Assembly (NCBI GenBank): GCA_014730235.1
Contig: WJIO01000061.1
Span: 1 to 9,914 of the forward strand
Reading direction: 5' to 3'
DNA length: 9,914 nt
Origin: Candidatus Poribacteria bacterium
GTDB lineage: Bacteria; Poribacteria; DTPJ01; WJIO01
Shown here: piece by piece, positions 819 through 9,914 of the stretch
Layout: each line of letters opens with the position of its first letter
Position numbering within the stretch: the first letter of the stretch is position 1
Program-made: the position numbers and the translations under genes
The notes under the pieces: model-generated
Told to the model about the DNA's origin: nothing
Seen by the model: the letters and a program-made list of their open reading frames with translations, nothing else
Databases searched by the model: none

Positions 819-1253
819 ATGTCACTAAAGAGATGGTTTTTAACAGATAAAAGCGGTTTTTCCATTATGGAAGGGGTAGTAAGTATAGCAGTTTTTACTA
901 TAGCAGCCCTGGGAACATATACTTCCCTGATATTGACCCAGAGATATGTGCTACATTCCAGGCAAATGGCCCAGGCCGTAAATTATACTCGTTCAAAGCT
1001 GGAAGAAATTTCAGATATTGAAATAACTGAAATCGCTGATACATATCCACCAAATGAAAATAATTATTTATACGATGGATATGAACCATATCTACCTTCT
1101 GCGAGGTGGAAGGTACAATACTTTAACGAATATGGCAACCCATCAACAATGGCCAATCCATTGACCATAAGGATTACTCTATACTGGAAAAAGACGGACA
1201 ATTCGGATCATTCTATCCAGTTGGCCACAAAGGTAACACCGGGGGCAATATAG
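819..1253 (+). CDS. PilV-like minor prepilin
   Basis: A 144-residue type IV pilin-like protein. A short basic leader (residues 1-13, ending K-S-G) is followed by the prepilin peptidase site G13/F14 with the conserved Glu at mature position 5 (E18, 'FSIME'). A hydrophobic helix runs to about residue 38 ('GVVSIAVFTIAALGTYTSLI'). The rest is a small globular domain with no cysteines. The family is inserted in the inner membrane, processed by PilD and incorporated at or near the pilus tip as a priming minor pilin; a pseudopilin of a type II-like system is the alternative. The start is supported by a GGGGGTG ribosome binding site at 808-814. It is first in an operon with 1267-1938, 13 bp downstream, and the PilV-PilW-PilX order supports the call. 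Confidence 0.85.
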   Translation: MSLKRWFLTDKSGFSIMEGVVSIAVFTIAALGTYTSLILTQRYVLHSRQMAQAVNYTRSKLEEISDIEITEIADTYPPNENNYLYDGYEPYLPSARWKVQYFNEYGNPSTMANPLTIRITLYWKKTDNSDHSIQLATKVTPGAI

Positions 1254-1266
1254 GGGGATTGTTAAT

Positions 1267-1938
1267 ATGTTTGGGCTAAAAGCAAATAAACATATATTTT
1301 TTGGGGAAGAAGGTCTTACTCTTGTAGAAATTTTAATATCCCTGGTTATTATGTCCATAAGCATTCTGGGTACATACGGTATTTTAATAGCTGTCCAGGA
1401 GCAGCAATCGGACAAGATTGATACCATAAGAATGTATGACGAAGCCAGAATAGCGCTGGATCGGATGTACAGGGAAATATCTGAAACATCAAACAGGACA
1501 GTATCGGCAGGAACAGGGTGCAAAGGTGTAAGTTTTGCCTCTGCCCGGAATTCCAATGGCGTTTTCCAATGGGAGACTTACGGTTCATTAAATTTCAGCC
1601 GTCCTGTCTGGAAAAAAGCAGTAATTTATTATGTATATAAAAAATCACCACAAGAACCGAATAAATTGTGTTTATACAGAAAAACAGTAAACAAAACCAA
1701 CTGGTCAGGTCAGAACAGGCATTATAACACCTGTGGTGCGGTAGGATATAACGGTGAAATTGTCGCTGAAGATGTCTATGATCTTACCTTTTACCCTACA
1801 GATGTTACAGCACAGAATCATTACATTCAGGTAAATCTGGAAATGAAAATAACCCCTGATGAAGACGAAGATGAAGAAGCCATTCAACCAGGAATAAAAC
1901 TCAGCACAGTTATTCCCATGATGAATCGAGAAAGGTAA
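1267..1938 (+). CDS. PilW-like minor prepilin
   Basis: A 223-residue prepilin. Leader residues 1-16 end in E-E-G and are cut before L17. Mature residue 5 is Glu (E21 in 'LTLVE'), followed by a hydrophobic helix to about residue 45. The C-terminal ~175 residues form the periplasmic domain, with three cysteines (in 'GCKG', 'LCLY' and 'NTCG') that could make a disulfide. An acidic stretch (D-E-D-E-D-E-E) lies near the end. The AGGGGGA ribosome binding site (1252-1258) overlaps the stop codon of the PilV-like gene, so the two are likely translated together. By family this is a PilW/PulJ-type minor pilin that joins the PilV- and PilX-like proteins in an initiation complex. The body is too divergent to tell a type IV pilus from a type II secretion pseudopilus. 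Confidence 0.82.
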   Translation: MFGLKANKHIFFGEEGLTLVEILISLVIMSISILGTYGILIAVQEQQSDKIDTIRMYDEARIALDRMYREISETSNRTVSAGTGCKGVSFASARNSNGVFQWETYGSLNFSRPVWKKAVIYYVYKKSPQEPNKLCLYRKTVNKTNWSGQNRHYNTCGAVGYNGEIVAEDVYDLTFYPTDVTAQNHYIQVNLEMKITPDEDEDEEAIQPGIKLSTVIPMMNRER

Positions 1939-1939
1939 A

Positions 1940-1946
1940 GAGGTGA
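1940..1946 (+). promoter_or_regulatory. Ribosome binding site deciding the PilX-like start
   Basis: GAGGTGA lies 5 nt before the ATG at 1952. This favours 1952 over the upstream in-frame GTG at 1943, which itself falls inside this site. Confidence 0.6.
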
Positions 1947-1951
1947 AGGTT

Positions 1952-3595
1952 ATGACAAAACAACATCCAAAGGGATTTGGTATATTCATTTTACATGAAG
2001 AAGGCTTCGCGTTAGTTGTTACGGTGGTTATAGCATTTATACTGGTTTTATTTGGTGGATCGCTCATGACCATTGCCATGCAGGAAATAAAACAGGTAAG
2101 CCAAGAGAAAAAGTCAAAAGACGCTTTTTACCTTGCTCGAGCTGGTATAGCTGATTCAATAGACACCCTTAGAAATGAATATTACTATATATCCGAGGAA
2201 AAATACACCCGTTATTATGTGTCCTTTGAAAGTGGAAGTTACAGCTACTCTATTGAACCTCTGGGAAAAGTCCATTTTATCGGCAGCAAGTATATGACCG
2301 GAACATTCCATGTTGAGGCTGTTGGCTATAAGGATGGCAAAAACCGGGGGCTTGGTTCTAAGATAGAGCGGGATACGTTTCTCAGGTACTCCAGATTTGT
2401 CAGCCAGGGAAGCCTTAGTTATGCAGCAAATGCAGAAATATTTGCCGATGTTTACGTTGGTAATGATCTCAACCTAAACGGTTATCCTGTAACTTTTCAT
2501 GGTGATCTGGAAATCGGCGGCAGGATTAACAACCAGCACAGAGGTATTTATGACGGTGATATAAGGGGAATAGGCCCTGGAATTGATTTACACGATTCTG
2601 TGAATATCAGTTATTACAGAGATCTGGCCAGGGGGAATATACCCAACGAAGGAACCGGCGTATATCTTTCCAATACAATTTCATTAGATTTAAGCCTCTT
2701 TGATTTCTCAAATAATCCACCGACATATAACGGATATCAACTTCCTTCAGACTTCAATGGTGTAATATTCTGTGAGAGTGATATATACGTGGAAGGCACA
2801 TTGGAAGGCGCAAAGATAGGCGACGAAACCAAAGGCTCTCTTACTTTTATCTCTAACGATGACATTATTGCCACCGATCATGTCCGCACAGGTAATGGCA
2901 ACGAGGATTCCCGCAGTACAGGTTCAGTAACTTTTAACCAGAGAAGCGGAAGAAGACAGACAGAATATGTAAACCTTAACGGCATTATTGATGACGATAC
3001 TACTGCTTTAAAGCTCAGGATAAATGGCAGTAGATGGAGCAAAATGAGGATGTATATAAAGGAAGATGGGGATGTCATTGCCCAGACAGACCTGGTGCGA
3101 GAGTCTGGATCACCAAATGAGCAGACAGCGATAGTTAATAACGTCATATTAGACCCTGATAACCACAACTACCAGGCGGAAATTCAATTTTACTCATCAG
3201 ACAGAGGTAATAATTACGCCAATGTAGAGGCATATGACGGAGAGCCTGTAAACGTGGGTTTTGTGGCTAAGGATATGTTTTATATTGATGATAACACCCC
3301 AAGAGAATTGGTGATAGATGCGGCAATACTGACAAGAAACCGAACATGGAACGCTCTGGGTAATTATTATAGTCATCCTGATGGTTTTGACTCCGGCAAC
3401 TGGGAGTTAACCATAAACGGTCCAATTATAACATATAACGGTGGTTCGGCGGGGCCATGGTCCAGTTATGGCAAAAGAAATTACAATTATGATATGGATA
3501 TGATCGAATACCCGCCACCAGCTTTTCCCGTACCTTCAGATGGATGGAAAATTGCATATTGGTATTACATGAAAGAGGATGAAATTACATTATGA
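1952..3595 (+). CDS. PilX-like protein with a large C-terminal ectodomain
   Basis: A 547-residue protein. The N-terminus is prepilin-like: leader ending 'HEEG' at residue 18, then 'FALVVTVVIAF', a hydrophobic helix to about residue 43. Mature position 5 is Val rather than Glu, as in PilX and GspK-type proteins. A segment 'KDAFYLARAGIADSI' (residues 56-70) matches the helix conserved after the membrane segment in PilX N-terminal domains, though Arg63 stands where Glu is usual. Residues ~140-547 form a long Gly/Asn/Tyr/Asp-rich, beta-prone region ('DVYVGNDLNLNGYPVTFHGDL') suggestive of a repetitive beta structure. Typical PilX proteins have about 150-250 residues, so this one carries an extra domain. 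The gene follows PilW by 13 bp and overlaps the next gene by 4 bp (ATGA). It is probably a pilus-tip or secretion-tip component. Confidence 0.75.
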   Translation: MTKQHPKGFGIFILHEEGFALVVTVVIAFILVLFGGSLMTIAMQEIKQVSQEKKSKDAFYLARAGIADSIDTLRNEYYYISEEKYTRYYVSFESGSYSYSIEPLGKVHFIGSKYMTGTFHVEAVGYKDGKNRGLGSKIERDTFLRYSRFVSQGSLSYAANAEIFADVYVGNDLNLNGYPVTFHGDLEIGGRINNQHRGIYDGDIRGIGPGIDLHDSVNISYYRDLARGNIPNEGTGVYLSNTISLDLSLFDFSNNPPTYNGYQLPSDFNGVIFCESDIYVEGTLEGAKIGDETKGSLTFISNDDIIATDHVRTGNGNEDSRSTGSVTFNQRSGRRQTEYVNLNGIIDDDTTALKLRINGSRWSKMRMYIKEDGDVIAQTDLVRESGSPNEQTAIVNNVILDPDNHNYQAEIQFYSSDRGNNYANVEAYDGEPVNVGFVAKDMFYIDDNTPRELVIDAAILTRNRTWNALGNYYSHPDGFDSGNWELTINGPIITYNGGSAGPWSSYGKRNYNYDMDMIEYPPPAFPVPSDGWKIAYWYYMKEDEITL

Positions 3596-3999
3596 AAACC
3601 AAATCAAACAGCAGAACAATGTATATATTCCTTGGGGTTTTTGTAGCAGCAGTTCTGGGTTTGTTTGTTCTTATGCACCTCACAACACGATCTCTGGAAG
3701 AGCAAATGTCATACCAGGAGTACGAGTCAACAGAGGAAAAACAAACAGCTAAAGCTGATCAGGTCCAGGATGTTTCAGCAAATCAAAAGAACGTGGTTAA
3801 AAACGAGATCACCAGACCGGAAAAAGAACAAAAACTAAACCAAGAAGAAGAAACAGAGAAAACAAAGAAACCAGAAACCTACCCAAGAATAGAAAGCTCC
3901 AAAAATACCACAGATGACTGGATGTTTGAAGGTGGTGAAGAAATAGAGGCTAAAATAGATTCACATAGCAAAAATGAATTGACAAAACCTAGTGAGTAA
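3592..3999 (+). CDS. Small single-pass membrane protein with a charged low-complexity tail
   Basis: 135 residues. A short basic N-terminus (K2, K4, R8) precedes one membrane helix (about residues 10-29, 'MYIFLGVFVAAVLGLFVLM'), so the N-terminus is probably cytoplasmic and the tail periplasmic. The remaining ~105 residues are rich in Glu, Lys, Gln, Thr and Asn with almost no hydrophobic residues, and are probably disordered or partly coiled coil. The start codon overlaps the stop of the PilX-like gene (ATGA at 3592-3595), which points to translational coupling and a shared role in the pilus system. I do not recognise the family. Such anchored, extended proteins can act as periplasmic spacers or partners in envelope assemblies, but no function is shown. 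Confidence 0.7.
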   Translation: MKTKSNSRTMYIFLGVFVAAVLGLFVLMHLTTRSLEEQMSYQEYESTEEKQTAKADQVQDVSANQKNVVKNEITRPEKEQKLNQEEETEKTKKPETYPRIESSKNTTDDWMFEGGEEIEAKIDSHSKNELTKPSE

Positions 4000-4020
4000 G
4001 TAATTACCAATAAACATTTT

Positions 4021-4208
4021 GGTTCTTTGGGGTTTGGTGTGGCAATAATTGAAAACCCTATCAGCTTGGTCATTCCTGCGAAGGCAGGAATCCAGAAAAC
4101 ACACTATTAATAACAGGATTCCTGCTTTCTCAGGAATGACAAGTAAAGTGGTTTTTTTATGTAAAATTTGTAATTTTTCTTCATTACCACACTAATCCCG
4201 GAAGAACC
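4021..4208. mobile_element. Degenerate MITE-like element, copy 1
   Basis: Terminal inverted repeats 4021-4042 and 4187-4208 match at 18 of 22 positions and have the same sequence type (GGTTCTT....GTGTGG) as the better preserved element at 6972-7109. The interior holds a second inverted repeat (4069-4140). No transposase is encoded. The 8 bases outside each end (AACATTTT and AAAAAGAA) do not match, so the target duplication is lost or the true right end is elsewhere (see 4276-4300). Confidence 0.6.
4069..4140. repeat. Inner palindrome of the GTCATTCCTGC type
   Basis: Arms 4069-4093 and 4116-4140 are reverse complements at 23 of 25 positions, with a 22-nt spacer. The arm GTCATTCCTGCGAAGGCAGG is itself partly palindromic. 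The same short unit recurs at 7037-7062. Such GTCATTCCTGC..GCAGGAATGAC units are a common dispersed intergenic repeat. Confidence 0.8.
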
Positions 4209-4275
4209 AAAAAGAAAAGCTCAGCAGGAGCTTCACCCTCCCGAAAACAAGGTAAGTCTTCAGCAATTTATATTC

Positions 4276-4300
4276 CCGCACTTAAGTCGAAAGAACCAAA
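4276..4300. repeat. Isolated right-end-like sequence of the MITE family
   Basis: CCGCACTTAAGTCGAAAGAA followed by CCAAA resembles the right ends at 4187-4212 and 7088-7113 (CCACACTAAACCC.GAAGAACC). It could be the end of an older, longer insertion that starts at 4021. The outside 8-mers AACATTTT (4013-4020) and AAATTTTT (4298-4305) agree at 6 of 8 bases. Confidence 0.4.
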
Positions 4301-4331
4301 TTTTTTAAATGAAGACTGATTAGCTAAACGG

Positions 4332-4384
4332 GGAATATACTCCTGTAAATCTTATGTTTACATTGTTAAAACAGGAGGTATTCC
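4332..4384 (+). promoter_or_regulatory. Leader hairpin that could mask the msrA ribosome binding site
   Basis: In the mRNA, 4332-4346 (GGAATATACTCCTGT) can pair with 4371-4384 (ACAGGAGGTATTCC): 14 pairs including one G-U, with A4339 bulged and a 24-nt loop. The 3' arm contains the whole AGGAGG of msrA (4373-4378). A competing hairpin, TGTAAA (4344-4349) with TTTACA (4357-4362), would break the upper part of the stem. This is read from the sequence; regulation is inferred. Confidence 0.5.
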
Positions 4385-4388
4385 AAAG

Positions 4389-4979
4389 ATGAAAAAAATT
4401 GCCATTTTAATTTTAGCATCATTTTTACCTTTTGCCTCCTTCTGTGGATGCAAGTCTGAAAAAATTGTGGCTCAGGATATACAGGAGTATAGAGGTGATA
4501 TAGATATGGAACACGCAACTTTTGCGGCAGGATGTTTTTGGGGTGTTGAATATACATTTAGCAAAGTTGAAGGTGTAGCTTCTACAAAAGTTGGCTATAC
4601 CGGCGGTCATACGGAAAACCCCACGTATAAAGAAGTTTGCAGAAAAAATACAGGACATGCGGAAGCCGTTTTCGTGGAGTATGATCCTGATGTGGTGTCA
4701 TACGAAGAGCTTCTGGATGTTTTCTGGAAGGTTCATGATCCTACAACCCTCAACCGTCAGGGACCGGATATAGGAAGCCAGTATAGATCGGCCATTTTTT
4801 ATCACAACGAAGAACAGAAAAAAGCCGCTATGGAATCCAAAGACATGCTTCAGAAATCCGGCAAATATAGAAGAGATATAGTAACAGAAATAACTCCAGC
4901 CTCTACATTCTACAAGGCCGAAGATTATCACCAGAAGTATTACGAGAAAAAAGGTTTGACCGGCTGTGGAATAGGCTGA
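4389..4979 (+). CDS. msrA: Peptide-methionine (S)-S-oxide reductase MsrA, exported form
   Basis: 196 residues. MsrA reduces the S-epimer of methionine sulfoxide in oxidised proteins back to methionine, using a catalytic Cys recycled by disulfide exchange. The hallmark 'GCFWG' is at residues 48-52 with catalytic Cys49. Further family motifs are 'GYTGG', 'GHAEAV', '[21 protein letters not shown]' and the C-terminal 'EDYHQKYY'; Cys193 near the end may be a resolving cysteine. Residues 1-21 are an export signal ('[20 protein letters not shown]'), possibly a lipoprotein signal with Cys21, though the lipobox is imperfect, so the enzyme probably works in the envelope. AGGAGG at 4373-4378 precedes this start. 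The internal Met40 (4506) has its own strong site and begins exactly where cytosolic MsrA proteins begin. The gene is monocistronic, ending at a shared terminator. Confidence 0.95.
4491..4498 (+). promoter_or_regulatory. Internal ribosome binding site within msrA
   Basis: AGAGGTGA lies 7 nt before the in-frame ATG at 4506 (Met40). Initiation there would give a 157-residue MsrA without the export signal. Confidence 0.45.
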
Positions 4980-4982
4980 TTA

Positions 4983-5038
4983 TAATAAAACCAAAAACGG
5001 GGATGCGATATATCGCATCCCCGTTTTTGGTTTTATTA
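4983..5038. terminator. Bidirectional terminator, perfect 56-bp palindrome
   Basis: Bases 4983-5010 and 5011-5038 are perfect 28-bp reverse complements. The stem has a GC-rich core (CGGGGATGCG) flanked by A5 and T5 tracts that give a U-rich 3' side in both directions. It sits between the converging ends of msrA (4979) and the minus-strand gene (5045), so it probably serves both. Confidence 0.92.
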
Positions 5039-5044
5039 AAGGGT

Positions 5045-6829
5045 TTACATACCGGCCATCTGGGAAAAATCATTTATAGTCCGGGTGAAATTCTGTATTT
5101 CACTGATGCGAAAATAGATAGTATTCTGAAGCCCATCATCGTTAAACCTTGTGGAAGCGGCAAACCCCACCCCGGGTTTTACTTCCTTTCTCGTTAGTCT
5201 ACCGCCCATCTGACGCACCATCATATTCATTATAAATTTCATATAACCCGAAGGCGCTACATAAAGACTCATATTGCTTTTATGGGATAAGCGTATGTTT
5301 AACTCGTCAAAACCAGGCGTATACTGTATGCTGGTTCCCCGGCCCTTTATAGAATCAATTGCCGTTTTTATGGTGCTTGCCGACTGAGAGACTGCATATA
5401 TTATTTTATCATCCACAAAAGCATACCATGTAAAGACTCTGTCGGGATAGTTCATTGATCTATTAGGCATATTCTGATTCATTTCACCCAAATCCATCTG
5501 GAAACTTTTTATATTTACACCTGTGTAATTCTGGGAAGGACCCTTTGACATTTTAAAATCCAGACCAAAGGCCTTATTCATTGGTCGAATTAGATCTTCC
5601 ATGTAGTCCAGATTTCCCAATGTTTTTCGGGCTTTTTCCCGGTCTTTAAGGTCTATTATATAAACCACCCGGGGCATTGTTTTGTCGGCATCAGTAAGGA
5701 AGGCGTAAGCAATCTCGTCCCCCAGGCATGACATCATATCATCAACGGCTTTTTTGTATTTATCCCGGAAAAACGCCAGCTCATCCTGTTGAATATCTTC
5801 TGCTATTGATTCCAGCATTATATCAAGCATAATTTCATTTATCTTACTGTAGGTTTCAGAATCAACAGTCATTCCACCAGCCATGAAAATATCACCCGGA
5901 AGCTGGTTGATTAACCTCATACGACTCGGTTTCATATTCTTCAGAAAAGGACAGACAGGACTGGCGGGAAAAACCTTGAGAGAATCGTTGAACCAGACTC
6001 CGCTTCTTTCTATACCAAGGCTAAAGGAATATGATTTGATCTGCTTTAACAGCCACAGCCCAATATCCATCTCGGAACTTACCAGATTGGCCACATTCAT
6101 ATTTTTATACGGCGTTGACGATCCCTGCTGCTTCATCTGTTTTATCATTTCGGCTTTGGCGTTGTTTAATTTATTCTCCAGAAAAGACGTATTATCAACT
6201 GTGATCTTCCCTACTGATACATATATCAAGACATCCCCTGAACGCAGGTTCTTTATATTCGATGTATATGCCCCGTTGTCAGCTATTGATGGCTTGTCTT
6301 TCAAATGTGTTTCGATTGCATCTGTTATGTCGGATTTTTTCTTTGAGTATACGAATATATCATCCAGAAATACCCAGGCTGAGTCAGGGCTTGGTTGACC
6401 GTAAGTTACACCTTTATATTCCTTTTTATCCCCACCAATTTTTTCTTCAATAGCCTTTTGCGCTTTTTGTAATGATGCAATATGGACGGCCACACCGGGA
6501 GGGTTGTTAAAAGAGGCATTGTTCCAGAAAATACAAGCATCTCTTTTCATATCAAATCCAAGACCCTCCAGGGCCATAATATCATGCACATCTGTTCCTG
6601 TGGATTGTTTTAAAAGCATTGCCATTGATACATGGGGAACATCGTCTATTTCCAGGGAATTCATAAGTTTAGACAATTTCAGATCGAAATTCCTGGGATT
6701 GGATATTTTGACGATAATTGAAGAATTCTCAGGAATTACCCTGACAACAGAATCCTGTTGAGAAAAGGCCGGCGTATTTGCAAAAAGAAGAATTACTATG
6801 ACTATTGATATTAAAAGATTTATTTTCAT
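5045..6829 (-). CDS. Exported protein of unknown function, DUF3352-like
   Basis: 594 residues from the ATG at 6829, which follows GGGGAGGT (6842-6835) by 5 nt and begins a clean signal peptide: 'MKINLLISIVIVILLFANTPAFS', likely cut before Gln24. The longer frame to 6898 starts inside a probable -10 box and is rejected. The mature part opens with 'VIPENSSIIVKISN' and holds repeated blocks of a form '..PDSAWVFLDDIFVYSKKKSDITDAIETH' and 'FTWYAFVDDKIIYAVSQSASTIKTAIDS'. These alternate beta strands with a helix after 'S', the pattern I associate with DUF3352-type periplasmic proteins. No catalytic motif is visible. It is probably soluble in the periplasm or on the surface. It stands alone, convergent with msrA. 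The family label is tentative; that it is an exported protein is much surer. Confidence 0.85.
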   Translation of the reverse strand: MKINLLISIVIVILLFANTPAFSQQDSVVRVIPENSSIIVKISNPRNFDLKLSKLMNSLEIDDVPHVSMAMLLKQSTGTDVHDIMALEGLGFDMKRDACIFWNNASFNNPPGVAVHIASLQKAQKAIEEKIGGDKKEYKGVTYGQPSPDSAWVFLDDIFVYSKKKSDITDAIETHLKDKPSIADNGAYTSNIKNLRSGDVLIYVSVGKITVDNTSFLENKLNNAKAEMIKQMKQQGSSTPYKNMNVANLVSSEMDIGLWLLKQIKSYSFSLGIERSGVWFNDSLKVFPASPVCPFLKNMKPSRMRLINQLPGDIFMAGGMTVDSETYSKINEIMLDIMLESIAEDIQQDELAFFRDKYKKAVDDMMSCLGDEIAYAFLTDADKTMPRVVYIIDLKDREKARKTLGNLDYMEDLIRPMNKAFGLDFKMSKGPSQNYTGVNIKSFQMDLGEMNQNMPNRSMNYPDRVFTWYAFVDDKIIYAVSQSASTIKTAIDSIKGRGTSIQYTPGFDELNIRLSHKSNMSLYVAPSGYMKFIMNMMVRQMGGRLTRKEVKPGVGFAASTRFNDDGLQNTIYFRISEIQNFTRTINDFSQMAGM

Positions 6830-6834
6830 TACAT

Positions 6835-6842
6835 ACCTCCCC
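6835..6842 (-). promoter_or_regulatory. Ribosome binding site deciding the start of the 594-residue protein
   Basis: Read on the minus strand this is GGGGAGGT, 5 nt before the ATG at 6829, which is also where the signal peptide begins. Confidence 0.75.
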
Positions 6843-6896
6843 GGTATTAATTTGCACATTCCGATCTTGTCATTCCTCCGTCTAAACATTAGTCGC

Positions 6897-6902
6897 ATTA
6901 TA
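6897..6902 (-). promoter_or_regulatory. Possible -10 box for the minus-strand gene
   Basis: On the minus strand this reads TATAAT, an exact -10 consensus, about 68 bp before the chosen start codon. No good -35 hexamer is seen at 16-18 bp, so this is only a candidate. Confidence 0.3.
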
Positions 6903-6963
6903 TGGTTATATCGGTTGAATATTTATGGAAAATAAATGGTTTTTCCGACTTGAATGGGGTAAA

Positions 6964-6971
6964 AGAATTTT
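6964..6971. repeat. Left target site duplication of the MITE
   Basis: AGAATTTT, identical to 7110-7117 on the other side of the element. Confidence 0.75.
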
Positions 6972-7109
6972 GGTTCTTCCGGGTTTAGTGTGGAAATAAT
7001 AAAATATTATCTAATAAGAAAAAATATCCTCTGTTTGTCATTCCTGCTTTCGCAGGAATGACATACTTATACAGGTTTTCATATTTACCACACTAAACCC
7101 TGAAGAACC
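6972..7109. mobile_element. 138-bp MITE with ISL3-like ends and 8-bp target duplication, copy 2
   Basis: Terminal inverted repeats 6972-6993 and 7088-7109 match at 21 of 22 positions and begin GGTTCTTC. The eight bases on both outer sides are identical (AGAATTTT at 6964-6971 and at 7110-7117), the signature of transposition. ISL3-family insertion sequences make 8-bp duplications and, as I recall, have ends starting GGxTCTTC, so an ISL3-type transposase acting in trans is the likely mover. No coding capacity. The centre holds a GTCATTCCTGC palindrome (7037-7062). Confidence 0.8.
7037..7062. repeat. GTCATTCCTGC palindrome inside the MITE
   Basis: Arms 7037-7047 and 7052-7062 are perfect 11-bp reverse complements around TTTC. 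It is the same unit as the arms of 4069-4140. Confidence 0.8.
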
Positions 7110-7117
7110 AGAATTTT
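7110..7117. repeat. Right target site duplication of the MITE
   Basis: AGAATTTT, identical to 6964-6971. Confidence 0.75.
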
Positions 7118-7125
7118 CAATTATA

Positions 7126-7151
7126 CCTACACTAAACCCGGAAGAGCTAAA
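7126..7151. repeat. Isolated right-end-like sequence of the MITE family
   Basis: CCTACACTAAACCCGGAAGA followed by GCTAAA closely resembles the right end at 7088-7113 and has the same orientation. No partner left end is adjacent. It mirrors the extra right end seen after copy 1. Confidence 0.5.
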
Positions 7152-7182
7152 TAAATTATTTGAGTTTTAAAATTTCCAGGCC

Positions 7183-7211
7183 TTGATATTTACGCAATTT
7201 TGATGTAAAAT
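7183..7211 (+). promoter_or_regulatory. Sigma-70 promoter of the RHH/CHAT operon
   Basis: TTGATA (7183-7188) and TAAAAT (7206-7211) each match the consensus at 5 of 6 bases and are separated by exactly 17 bp. A transcript would start near 7218, giving a leader of about 50 nt. Two ACGCAAT words (7192-7198 in the spacer, 7236-7242 downstream), 44 bp apart, are candidate operator half-sites for the RHH protein encoded next. Confidence 0.55.
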
Positions 7212-7267
7212 ACACATGAAATAAACGTCAATTTAACGCAATATAAAAGCAACAGGAGGTAAGTAAA

Positions 7268-7474
7268 ATGGCAAAACTTACAGTACAATTTGGAGATAGA
7301 ATTAATGATAATCTGGAAGAAATCGCAAAACGCAAAGGTATAACTAAATCCGAGGTTATTCGCCGGGCCCTGGCCATGTATATGTATGTTGATGATGAAA
7401 CCAAAGAGGGTAACAAATTGACTATTACATCGGCTGAGGATGATAAGGTACTTAAGGAAATTGTTAATCTTTAA
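7268..7474 (+). CDS. Ribbon-helix-helix (CopG/Arc-type) DNA-binding protein
   Basis: 68 residues. Residues 3-8 ('KLTVQF') form the DNA-contacting beta ribbon. Helix A (about 11-23), a turn 'GITKSEV' at 24-30 and helix B (to about 40) follow, which is the standard RHH_1 layout. A C-terminal tail 'GNKLTITSAEDDKVLKEIVNL' is typical of small RHH regulators that sit at the head of conflict-type operons. RHH proteins work as dimers and often repress their own operon. An AGGAGGT ribosome binding site (7254-7260) is 7 nt before the ATG. The gene is first in an operon with the membrane protein (45-bp gap) and the CHAT/NB-ARC protein. Its likely job is to control that operon. It could also be an antitoxin, but no partner toxin of a known RHH-linked family is seen. 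Confidence 0.87.
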   Translation: MAKLTVQFGDRINDNLEEIAKRKGITKSEVIRRALAMYMYVDDETKEGNKLTITSAEDDKVLKEIVNL

Positions 7475-7506
7475 GAAATTCTCACAGTGCTTACGACCAG
7501 ACATTC

Positions 7507-7513
7507 AGGAGGG
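7507..7513 (+). promoter_or_regulatory. Ribosome binding site deciding the two-TM protein start
   Basis: AGGAGGG lies 6 nt before the ATG at 7520. The in-frame GTG at 7487 has no such site. Confidence 0.7.
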
Positions 7514-7519
7514 TATGTC

Positions 7520-7906
7520 ATGGGAAATGGAAATTCAGATAATAAAGTTAGTATTGGAGATATAACCAGCAAAAAGATTCCATCAGATGGATCCGATAAA
7601 GACATCCGAATACTACAGGTCAGGGCAGGTGTTGTATTATGCTATATATCCATAGCCCTGGTTGGTGCATCATCTATCATAATGATTATATATTATATCG
7701 TATCCATAGGTGATTTTAGAGAAATACTGAAAGTAACTAATGGAAGCACAGATACAGAATTAATACAAAAATACAAGGAAGTTTCGGGAATAGCTGTTGA
7801 CAATATCCTCAGAGTAAGCGAACGCATTATAGGAAGTATTCTTGTACCTATACTGACGTTATTATTAGGTTATATATTCGGTTCAAAGGAAGCCAAAAAC
7901 GAGTAA
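7520..7906 (+). CDS. Small two-helix membrane protein of the CHAT operon
   Basis: 128 residues. A polar N-terminal segment of ~35 residues rich in Asn, Asp, Ser and Lys precedes membrane helix 1 (about 38-61). A mixed helical loop follows (62-102, 'DFREILKVTNGSTDTELIQKY'), then membrane helix 2 (about 103-121, 'ILVPILTLLLGYIFG') and a short charged tail. Both ends are probably cytoplasmic and the loop periplasmic. The 'LLGYIFGSKEA' ending resembles small two-TM proteins I have seen near NTPase conflict systems, but I cannot name a family. It lies between the RHH regulator and the CHAT protease gene, the latter starting 11 bp after its stop, so the products are probably co-translated. It could anchor the CHAT protein at the membrane, be cleaved by it, or form a pore. 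None of these is shown. Confidence 0.8.
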   Translation: MGNGNSDNKVSIGDITSKKIPSDGSDKDIRILQVRAGVVLCYISIALVGASSIIMIIYYIVSIGDFREILKVTNGSTDTELIQKYKEVSGIAVDNILRVSERIIGSILVPILTLLLGYIFGSKEAKNE

Positions 7907-7917
7907 AGGCGGCATAT

Positions 7918-9914
7918 ATGGAGATTAACAGAAGCTTAAAGATTTTGCTGGCTTGCAGTCGTCCAATGGCGGTGCGAGGTAATGATAGTCCTTTAGATAT
8001 AGTAAGACAGGAAGAGGAACTGGAAGCTGTAAGAAATGGTTTGCAGGGTTTAAATCAAAATGTTGAGGTTGTGGTCCACAGCGGGGTTATGCTTTCGGAC
8101 ATAAATCGAATTCTGATGAACTCTGACCCGGAGTTTGACATACTGCATCTTATCCTGCATGGCACAGAGGACGGAAAACTCTATTTCGAGGATGAATCCG
8201 GCTATCTAAGGCCGGTAAGTCCTGATGAATTATCCATAGTCATAGATGGTCGGGTCAAAATGCTGGTTACTATGGCCTGTCATTCCGGAGGAGCGGTAAA
8301 TCTCTTGTTTGATGGTGATGATCCACCGGTTCAGTCGGCTGTGTGTATCGACCAGAAGCATCCTGTAACAGTCCGGGCGGCGGAAATTTTCACCGGCGCG
8401 CTGTATTCCGGCCTAGCAAGAGGGCGAACACTGGAGCGCAGTTTCAAGGATGCTGTGGGAACAGTCCGTCTGGATGATATTGTGGGTGAAAAAGCCATGC
8501 CCGGTTCAGACGAAGAGCCGTCCCAGTGGAAGCTGTTCCAGATAAAAGGCGATGACCAGATTACATTCCCGGACGTGGCCCGGGGAGATGTTAATATATC
8601 AGAGGCAGTAGAGAAAACCAACCATGTTAAAATACTCCTTACAGAAGAAATCTTTGTCGGTCGTAATGCCGACATGGCCAGAATCATAGAAAATATTCTC
8701 CCTCCATCTCTTGGTAATAATAAGCCAAAAGCCCGGATAGTCACCATTGTTGGTGAAGGCGGAATGGGTAAAACGAGAATAGCCCAGAAGGTGGCGGAAT
8801 GGCTGGCCTTCCGGGGAAGGTTTCCCGGCGGAATATTTGAGGTTGCCTGCGAGGGTGTCAATACATCCGCAGGATTGGCTGTGGAAATAATGAATTCACT
8901 GGATATAGAGGGCGCTGAAAGCATACCCAACGTGGAAACTGTTCTGCCGGAACTGCTGAAAAATTATAACTTGGATACGCTGCTTGTGCTGGATAATCTG
9001 GATGATCTATTTTCTGAGGATGGTAATAAAGCTGAAGCCGGAAGGCTTCTTAAAGCCTGTCTTACCAATTCCCCAAAGCTACGGATATTGGCCACATGCC
9101 GATGGCGGCTGGATTTGAGTTCGGATGAAAAGGTTTATCCGTTGAATCCCATGAATCAAATAGAGGCGGCGAAGCTGTTTATCCTGAGTATCCCTGACAA
9201 TAGGATAAAAAGGCAACTGCAGCAAAGTCTGTTTGAAACTGACAAAAACAGTGATTTCTTTAAACTGATCAATCTCACATCCTGCATCCCCCTGTGCGTA
9301 ATCCTTGCCGCCCGAAGGCTTGAACGGCATGGTCAAAGCCTGGAGACACTGCTGGAGGAAGCGGCGGAGGATATGATGAACGTGATGAACGATCCGGGGT
9401 TGGCATATCTGCCGGACAGGCTCAAGTCTGTCAGGGCATCCCTGGGATTATCTTATAAGAGGGTTTCAGAACCGGCAAAACTCCTTTTTGCCCGGATGAG
9501 CTTTTTCCCCGGTGGACTGTCCAGGAATCTTGACCTGTTTGAGCTTCTTGGAAATGCTTGGAAGGATGAACCGGAGGAACTCACCCGCTATGCCCTGGTA
9601 CGTTTTAATATTGATCATCAGCGATACATAATGCTGAATCCTGTCATGGAGTACGCAAAGGAAAAGCTGGATGGAATGGAGAACAGCAGGGATTTCCGTA
9701 AAAAGGCTGCCGAATACTGGGCCCAGTTTGCGTCGTGGCATGACATGATGATGGACGTAAGACCAGCCAGCCAGACCCAGGTGGAACAAATTATTGACCT
9801 GCCGGAAGACCCGGAAGAGCGTAAAGAGATGAAAGAGCTTCTGCGGGATAAATCCTTCGCCGAATTATCAGCGGAGGAGGATAACTTGGTCCACGCCGCC
9901 CAATGGGCGTTAAA
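7918..9914 (+). CDS. CHAT protease / NB-ARC (STAND NTPase) protein, 3' end outside window
   Basis: The frame is open from ATG 7918 to the window end (665 codons). Residues ~5-215 form a caspase-like CHAT protease with catalytic His81 ('LHLILHGTEDG') and Cys121 ('VTMACHSGG'), then the usual end 'AAEIFTGALYSGLARGRTLERS'. Residues ~245-590 form an NB-ARC/AP-ATPase switch: Walker A GEGGMGKT (279-286, Lys285), Walker B 'LLVLDNLDD' (Asp359), 'ATCR' (Arg395) and a degenerate GLPL motif with Pro458. A winged-helix region follows, where the MHD-like position reads 'MLNPVMEYA' (572-580). From ~600 on a helical repeat sensor, perhaps TPR, appears to begin. STAND proteins oligomerise on sensing a trigger; a CHAT effector would then cleave its target. 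The start has only a weak site (AAAGGCGG), consistent with coupling to the gene 11 bp upstream. Its base composition is more GC-rich than its neighbours. Confidence 0.9.
   Translation, partial: MEINRSLKILLACSRPMAVRGNDSPLDIVRQEEELEAVRNGLQGLNQNVEVVVHSGVMLSDINRILMNSDPEFDILHLILHGTEDGKLYFEDESGYLRPVSPDELSIVIDGRVKMLVTMACHSGGAVNLLFDGDDPPVQSAVCIDQKHPVTVRAAEIFTGALYSGLARGRTLERSFKDAVGTVRLDDIVGEKAMPGSDEEPSQWKLFQIKGDDQITFPDVARGDVNISEAVEKTNHVKILLTEEIFVGRNADMARIIENILPPSLGNNKPKARIVTIVGEGGMGKTRIAQKVAEWLAFRGRFPGGIFEVACEGVNTSAGLAVEIMNSLDIEGAESIPNVETVLPELLKNYNLDTLLVLDNLDDLFSEDGNKAEAGRLLKACLTNSPKLRILATCRWRLDLSSDEKVYPLNPMNQIEAAKLFILSIPDNRIKRQLQQSLFETDKNSDFFKLINLTSCIPLCVILAARRLERHGQSLETLLEEAAEDMMNVMNDPGLAYLPDRLKSVRASLGLSYKRVSEPAKLLFARMSFFPGGLSRNLDLFELLGNAWKDEPEELTRYALVRFNIDHQRYIMLNPVMEYAKEKLDGMENSRDFRKKAAEYWAQFASWHDMMMDVRPASQTQVEQIIDLPEDPEERKEMKELLRDKSFAELSAEEDNLVHAAQWAL

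Follow-up and report, generated by a model that had tools for sequence, protein, structure and literature searches.

An ordered ribbon-helix-helix, two-TM, and CHAT-NB-ARC gene trio in Poribacteria: a possible rare variant of described death or immune modules of bacteria

INTRODUCTION

Bacterial gasdermin systems place a CHAT protease beside a membrane-acting partner, and AfsR, in which an NB-ARC switch is followed by a winged helix, carries a DNA-binding SARP domain at its N terminus. The SAVED-CHAT protease forms a stacked oligomer, in which the SAVED domains are stacked and which serves as a model in PMC11417357. EACC1-caspase conflict systems consist of two genes, with the EACC1 gene preceding the caspase gene, and the C termini of the caspase proteins include STAND NTPases, as set out in the passages of Kaur et al. 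(2020, PMC7159879) that we draw on here.

In this study, we compare these systems with a Poribacteria locus in which genes for a ribbon-helix-helix (RHH) protein, a small two-TM protein, and a CHAT-NB-ARC protein follow one another. None of the papers searched described an RHH-2TM-CHAT/NB-ARC gene set. Our own reading, which we hold tentatively and at somewhat less than even confidence, is that the operon is a conflict or cell-death module that is rare and regulates itself.

RESULTS

The stretch of DNA analyzed here (the window; 9,914 nucleotides) is contig C425 of a 5.53-Mb Poribacteria genome that is 92% complete and assembled in 451 contigs. Three genes lie in one direction on its plus strand: the RHH gene (7268 to 7474), the two-TM gene (7520 to 7906), and the CHAT-NB-ARC gene, which starts at 7918. 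The initial annotation had described three co-directional genes separated by gaps of 45 nt (RHH/two-TM) and 11 nt (two-TM/CHAT-NB-ARC), and the ORF coordinates and strands bear this out. Genes 1 and 2 are each preceded by a Shine-Dalgarno-like AGGAGG. The operon had also been placed behind one good promoter. A consensus scan did identify a candidate sigma-70 promoter on the plus strand (TTGATA-17-TAAAAT, 7183 to 7211, scoring 10/12). The region holds 11 promoter-like sites compared to 6.9 in shuffled sequences, a slight enrichment that is near chance, so a single good promoter is plausible rather than demonstrated. A repeat search of the same strand yielded a candidate RHH operator spanning 7189 to 7242, a near-identical direct repeat of TTTACGCAAT (7189 to 7198) and TTAACGCAAT (7233 to 7242) that overlaps the promoter and leader; at 10 nt and two copies, this repeat could be due to chance.

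According to a Pfam scan, the 5' flank of the operon in the window contains pilin-like genes, msrA, and a gene for a DUF3352 protein. At 819 to 3999, a prepilin-like gene cluster, with N-terminal methylation motifs and PilX-like features, is followed by a gene for a charged one-TM protein. The DUF3352 protein (5045 to 6898, minus strand) is 617 aa long and looks secreted, and its gene adjoins that of a peptide methionine sulfoxide reductase (4389 to 4979). The window also contains a MITE-like element of ~150 bp (6966 to 7115) in which inverted arms of 39 nt (GGTTCTTCCGGGTTTAGTGTGG) flank a central palindrome. We rejected this inverted repeat as an RHH operator because it is a dispersed element: a search of its own genome, in which 40 of 880 candidates were scored, matched at least 88 stretches, many of which were hits to an arm or overlapped one another. 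The presence of copies across the genome supports the membership of this contig in the source genome.

A second copy of the trio (G080, see below) has neighbors that look ordinary, as judged by eye from their translations. No defense genes were recognized beside either copy, on contigs from which the sequence 3' of gene 3 is absent, so that neither the defense-island location raised by the initial annotation nor a mobile-element setting was seen for the window copy or the G080 copy. PADLOC gave no match of note for the operon, and neither a MoxR ATPase gene nor a vWA gene, the markers used for a MoxR-vWA ternary system, was present within 7 kb 5' of the trio.

Gene 1 encodes a 68-aa RHH protein of the CopG type, with a match to Pfam RHH_1 above the cut-off (E = 2.7e-5). 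Gene 2 encodes a small membrane protein of 128 aa whose hydropathy profile has two hydrophobic segments, at residues 31 to 49 and 99 to 117. It was modeled as a two-helix hairpin with long helices (pLDDT of 64, with two sequences only as input). It matched no family in Pfam (at E = 0.1), PHROG, or PADLOC, its NCBIfam match was insignificant, and a test for type II toxin-antitoxin systems found no match to a recognized toxin family. Comparison with its G080 homolog shows a conserved C-terminal motif, LVPxxTLLxGYxFGxxE. When 84 genomes of the phylum were searched with a two-TM profile, the only convincing matches were in the source genome and G080, each beside RHH and CHAT genes.

Gene 3 (7918 to 9914) has 665 codons and runs off the contig end, so its C terminus is missing and the repeat region that the initial annotation saw starting here is at most putative. 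The CHAT cysteine protease domain (7918 to 8592) is followed by an NB-ARC switch with a winged helix (8629 to 9774). The predicted catalytic residues His81 and Cys121 lie exactly where they had been annotated and do not vary among 10 aligned CHAT sequences, and a profile of that alignment matched SAVED-CHAT (PDB 8tl0) as the nearest solved structure (E = 2.9e-33). The annotated switch motifs were likewise located precisely, with Walker A at residues 279 to 286, Asp359, and Arg395; in our check for STAND NTPases, gene 3 contained Walker A, Walker B (LLVLDN), and the sensor Arg. Pfam ranked NACHT as the best match for this region (32.3 bits, above the cut-off), with NB-ARC just below its cut-off at 22.7 bits. 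A profile of the switch region, however, matched AfsR (E = 3e-11) across nearly the whole NB-ARC/winged-helix span and also matched plant CNL resistosomes. Given how much of the region this profile match spans, and given a Walker B that reads LLVLDN, NB-ARC is the better name for the switch. AlphaFold modeling of all 665 residues gave a pLDDT of 37, too low for use.

A search of the source genome for TPRs found a contig (C30; G000:C30:1-590, L124) whose start lies within an open frame encoding 195 aa of TPRs that closely resemble one another. This frame is a candidate, as yet unproven, for the missing C terminus of the CHAT-NB-ARC gene, and repeats this similar would explain the assembly break; no overlap joining the end of the window to C30 or to another contig was found.

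The G080 copy of the trio (contig JADFGN010000070.1) belongs to another Poribacteria family and has the RHH, two-TM, and CHAT genes in identical order. The encoded proteins share 41% (RHH), 22% (two-TM), and 30% (CHAT) identity with those of the window. Its two-TM and CHAT genes overlap by 4 nt, and its contig ends within gene 3, past the CHAT domain. Considering that gene order has been kept despite such strong divergence, chance adjacency is very unlikely, an estimate that is informal rather than based on a calculated probability. We conclude that the three-gene set is real. It is known from these two instances only, one of which has gene 3 readable for the CHAT part alone.

We then inspected ~26 loci of CHAT relatives, drawn from eight plasmids and 20 fetched loci (found with a CHAT profile in 386 genomes; the 20 include G080 and one locus without a readable upstream gene). 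Outside the source genome and G080, none had RHH and small two-TM genes upstream. The initial annotation had named CHAT homologs without the two upstream genes in nearly all genomes as evidence that would refute its immune or self-killing reading, and for the CHAT family as a whole this is largely what we see: nearly all of the inspected relatives lack the RHH and two-TM genes, and several of these are CHAT-STAND fusions. The trio itself is nonetheless conserved where it occurs. Some of the plasmid relatives are proteins of the conflict type (EAD1, TIR, and SAVED fusions). A relative from genome G323 aligns with gene 3 over residues 29 to 606 and has the architecture CHAT-NB-ARC-7xTPR. At that locus (L105, reverse complement, 3765 to 8319), the gene 61 nt upstream encodes 421 aa, including a hydrophobic C terminus, and is possibly part of a second arrangement with a membrane partner.

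An alignment of the RHH protein, run against 84,980 genomes, found G080 only among the matches listed. An RHH profile applied to two further phyla (~400 genomes) recovered weaker RHH relatives only, with no CHAT gene downstream, and viral scans found no relative. A small TM protein is encoded within ~250 nt 3' of the RHH gene in 8 of 23 relatives, five of which have two TM segments, compared to a background of 9/342 genes (2.6%) in a similar ORF-based count; these counts are approximate, as we compiled the foreground cases manually and ORF calling was crude. Excluding the source genome and G080, the frequency was 6/21 (P ~ 1e-5). On plasmids of Burkholderia glumae (L028:3977-4581), Spartinivicinus (L031:4001-4524), and Escherichia coli (IncX1; L033:4001-4522), an RHH gene is directly followed by one for a two-TM protein, and these genes are possibly an undescribed toxin-antitoxin-like pair. 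Some other RHH relatives have PIN-like genes next in the 3' direction, as is the case for antitoxins. Genome G071 has the RHH gene alone, without a two-TM gene, and a profile comparison between the plasmid and Poribacteria two-TM proteins was not significant, so that homology is not established. RHH plus TM protein nevertheless looks like a reusable pair, joined here to a CHAT-STAND gene.

DISCUSSION

The anatomy of the trio is what we observe, and from it we infer every functional step of the module proposed here. The RHH protein would repress its own promoter and hold expression of the operon low. The unseen C terminus of gene 3, most likely TPRs as in the CHAT-NB-ARC-TPR protein of G323, would sense a trigger, and ATP-dependent oligomerization of the NB-ARC domain could then cluster and activate the CHAT protease, by analogy with SAVED-CHAT. 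The activated protease would cleave or release a partner, for which the two-TM protein is the most likely candidate and the RHH protein the alternative. The cleaved partner might disturb the inner membrane, resulting in a growth stop or cell death. If this mechanism is right, both a caspase-like protease and a membrane protein other than gasdermin would be under the control of an NLR-type switch, in a bacterial death pathway that has its own repressor, and the plasmid RHH-2TM pairs would become a family of candidate membrane toxins.

The immune or self-killing module put forward in the initial annotation gains support from the ordered trio in a second family, the intact motifs, the conflict-type CHAT relatives, and SAVED-CHAT as the nearest solved structure; against it stand the inspected CHAT relatives, nearly all of which lack the two upstream genes, and the failure to see a defense island at either copy or any convincing PADLOC result. 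We think it unlikely that the two-TM protein is instead a membrane anchor or sensor, similar to EACC1, that would recruit the CHAT-STAND protein and control how it is activated, the targets of CHAT then being CHAT itself or other molecules. According to Kaur et al. (PMC7159879), EACC1-caspase systems have the same layout: the 5' gene is small and encodes a membrane protein, whereas the 3' gene has an N-terminal caspase-superfamily domain and a variable C terminus, two features that gene 3 shares. A plain two-helix hairpin, as predicted for the two-TM protein, is also consistent with an anchor. However, EACC1 has one TM helix and the two-TM protein has two, an RHH gene is present in addition, and the Poribacteria unit lacks EADs. 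Although Pfam includes an EACC1 model, gene 2 matched neither this domain nor any other at E = 0.1.

Similarly improbable is a non-defense unit for signaling or transcription control of the AfsR type, in which CHAT would be a protease under regulation within an ordinary pathway of stress response or development. AfsR is the closest solved structure to the switch, and within the phylum the switch is similar to that of many STAND proteins, among them a cyclase-NB-ARC-TPR protein from G080. Both trio loci lie among ordinary genes, and one CHAT-STAND gene of the same order is located after genes that look like folate genes. NB-ARC-TPR proteins with non-defense N termini exist (AfsR and the G080 cyclase protein), so the switch by itself does not imply immunity, and this counts against the conflict or cell-death module that we prefer. 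In contrast, the patchy distribution of the trio (2/84 genomes of the phylum) is unlike that of a core pathway, and several CHAT relatives are conflict-type proteins. Very doubtful is an independent toxin-antitoxin-like or plasmid-type RHH-2TM pair joined to the CHAT-STAND gene, in which activated CHAT would destroy the RHH protein and free a membrane toxin: the plasmid pairs, the enrichment of small TM neighbors without the Poribacteria trios, and the PIN-like genes speak for it, but two-TM homology across the pairs is not significant and the RHH gene of G071 lacks a two-TM partner.

A further reading, to which we give a low probability, is that the RHH and two-TM genes are a mobile effector cassette that stands alone on plasmids and is wired here to an NLR-like CHAT switch, which would trigger the membrane toxin by cutting either the toxin or the RHH protein. 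If true, this would be a new bacterial analog of inflammasome-driven membrane killing without gasdermin.

How does the proposed conflict or cell-death module compare with the remaining described systems? It shares the CHAT domain with the SAVED-CHAT protease of type III CRISPR systems, but the sensor of the latter is a SAVED domain bound to cyclic oligoadenylate, whereas the Poribacteria protein has NB-ARC in its place; neither a SAVED domain nor type III cas genes were found in the three proteins or the scanned window genes. To our knowledge, SAVED-CHAT has no RHH or two-TM partner. With AfsR (PDB 8k60 and 8jke), gene 3 shares NB-ARC and the winged helix over ~330 residues, but the N terminus of AfsR is not a protease and that of gene 3 is a CHAT protease. 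As in gasdermin systems with CHAT, a protease is encoded beside a putative membrane partner, but gene 2 lacks gasdermin similarity and its product is modeled as an alpha-helical hairpin; no gene with a gasdermin fold was found next to the protease. Like the bacterial NLR-related (NACHT/NB-ARC STAND) antiphage proteins, gene 3 combines an N-terminal effector, here CHAT with an intact predicted active site, with a central STAND switch and, presumably, C-terminal repeats. The Poribacteria unit differs from these proteins in having CHAT as the effector, two dedicated upstream genes, and no defense island in view. Overall, the trio has the look of the death or immune modules already described in bacteria, of which it would be a rare variant.
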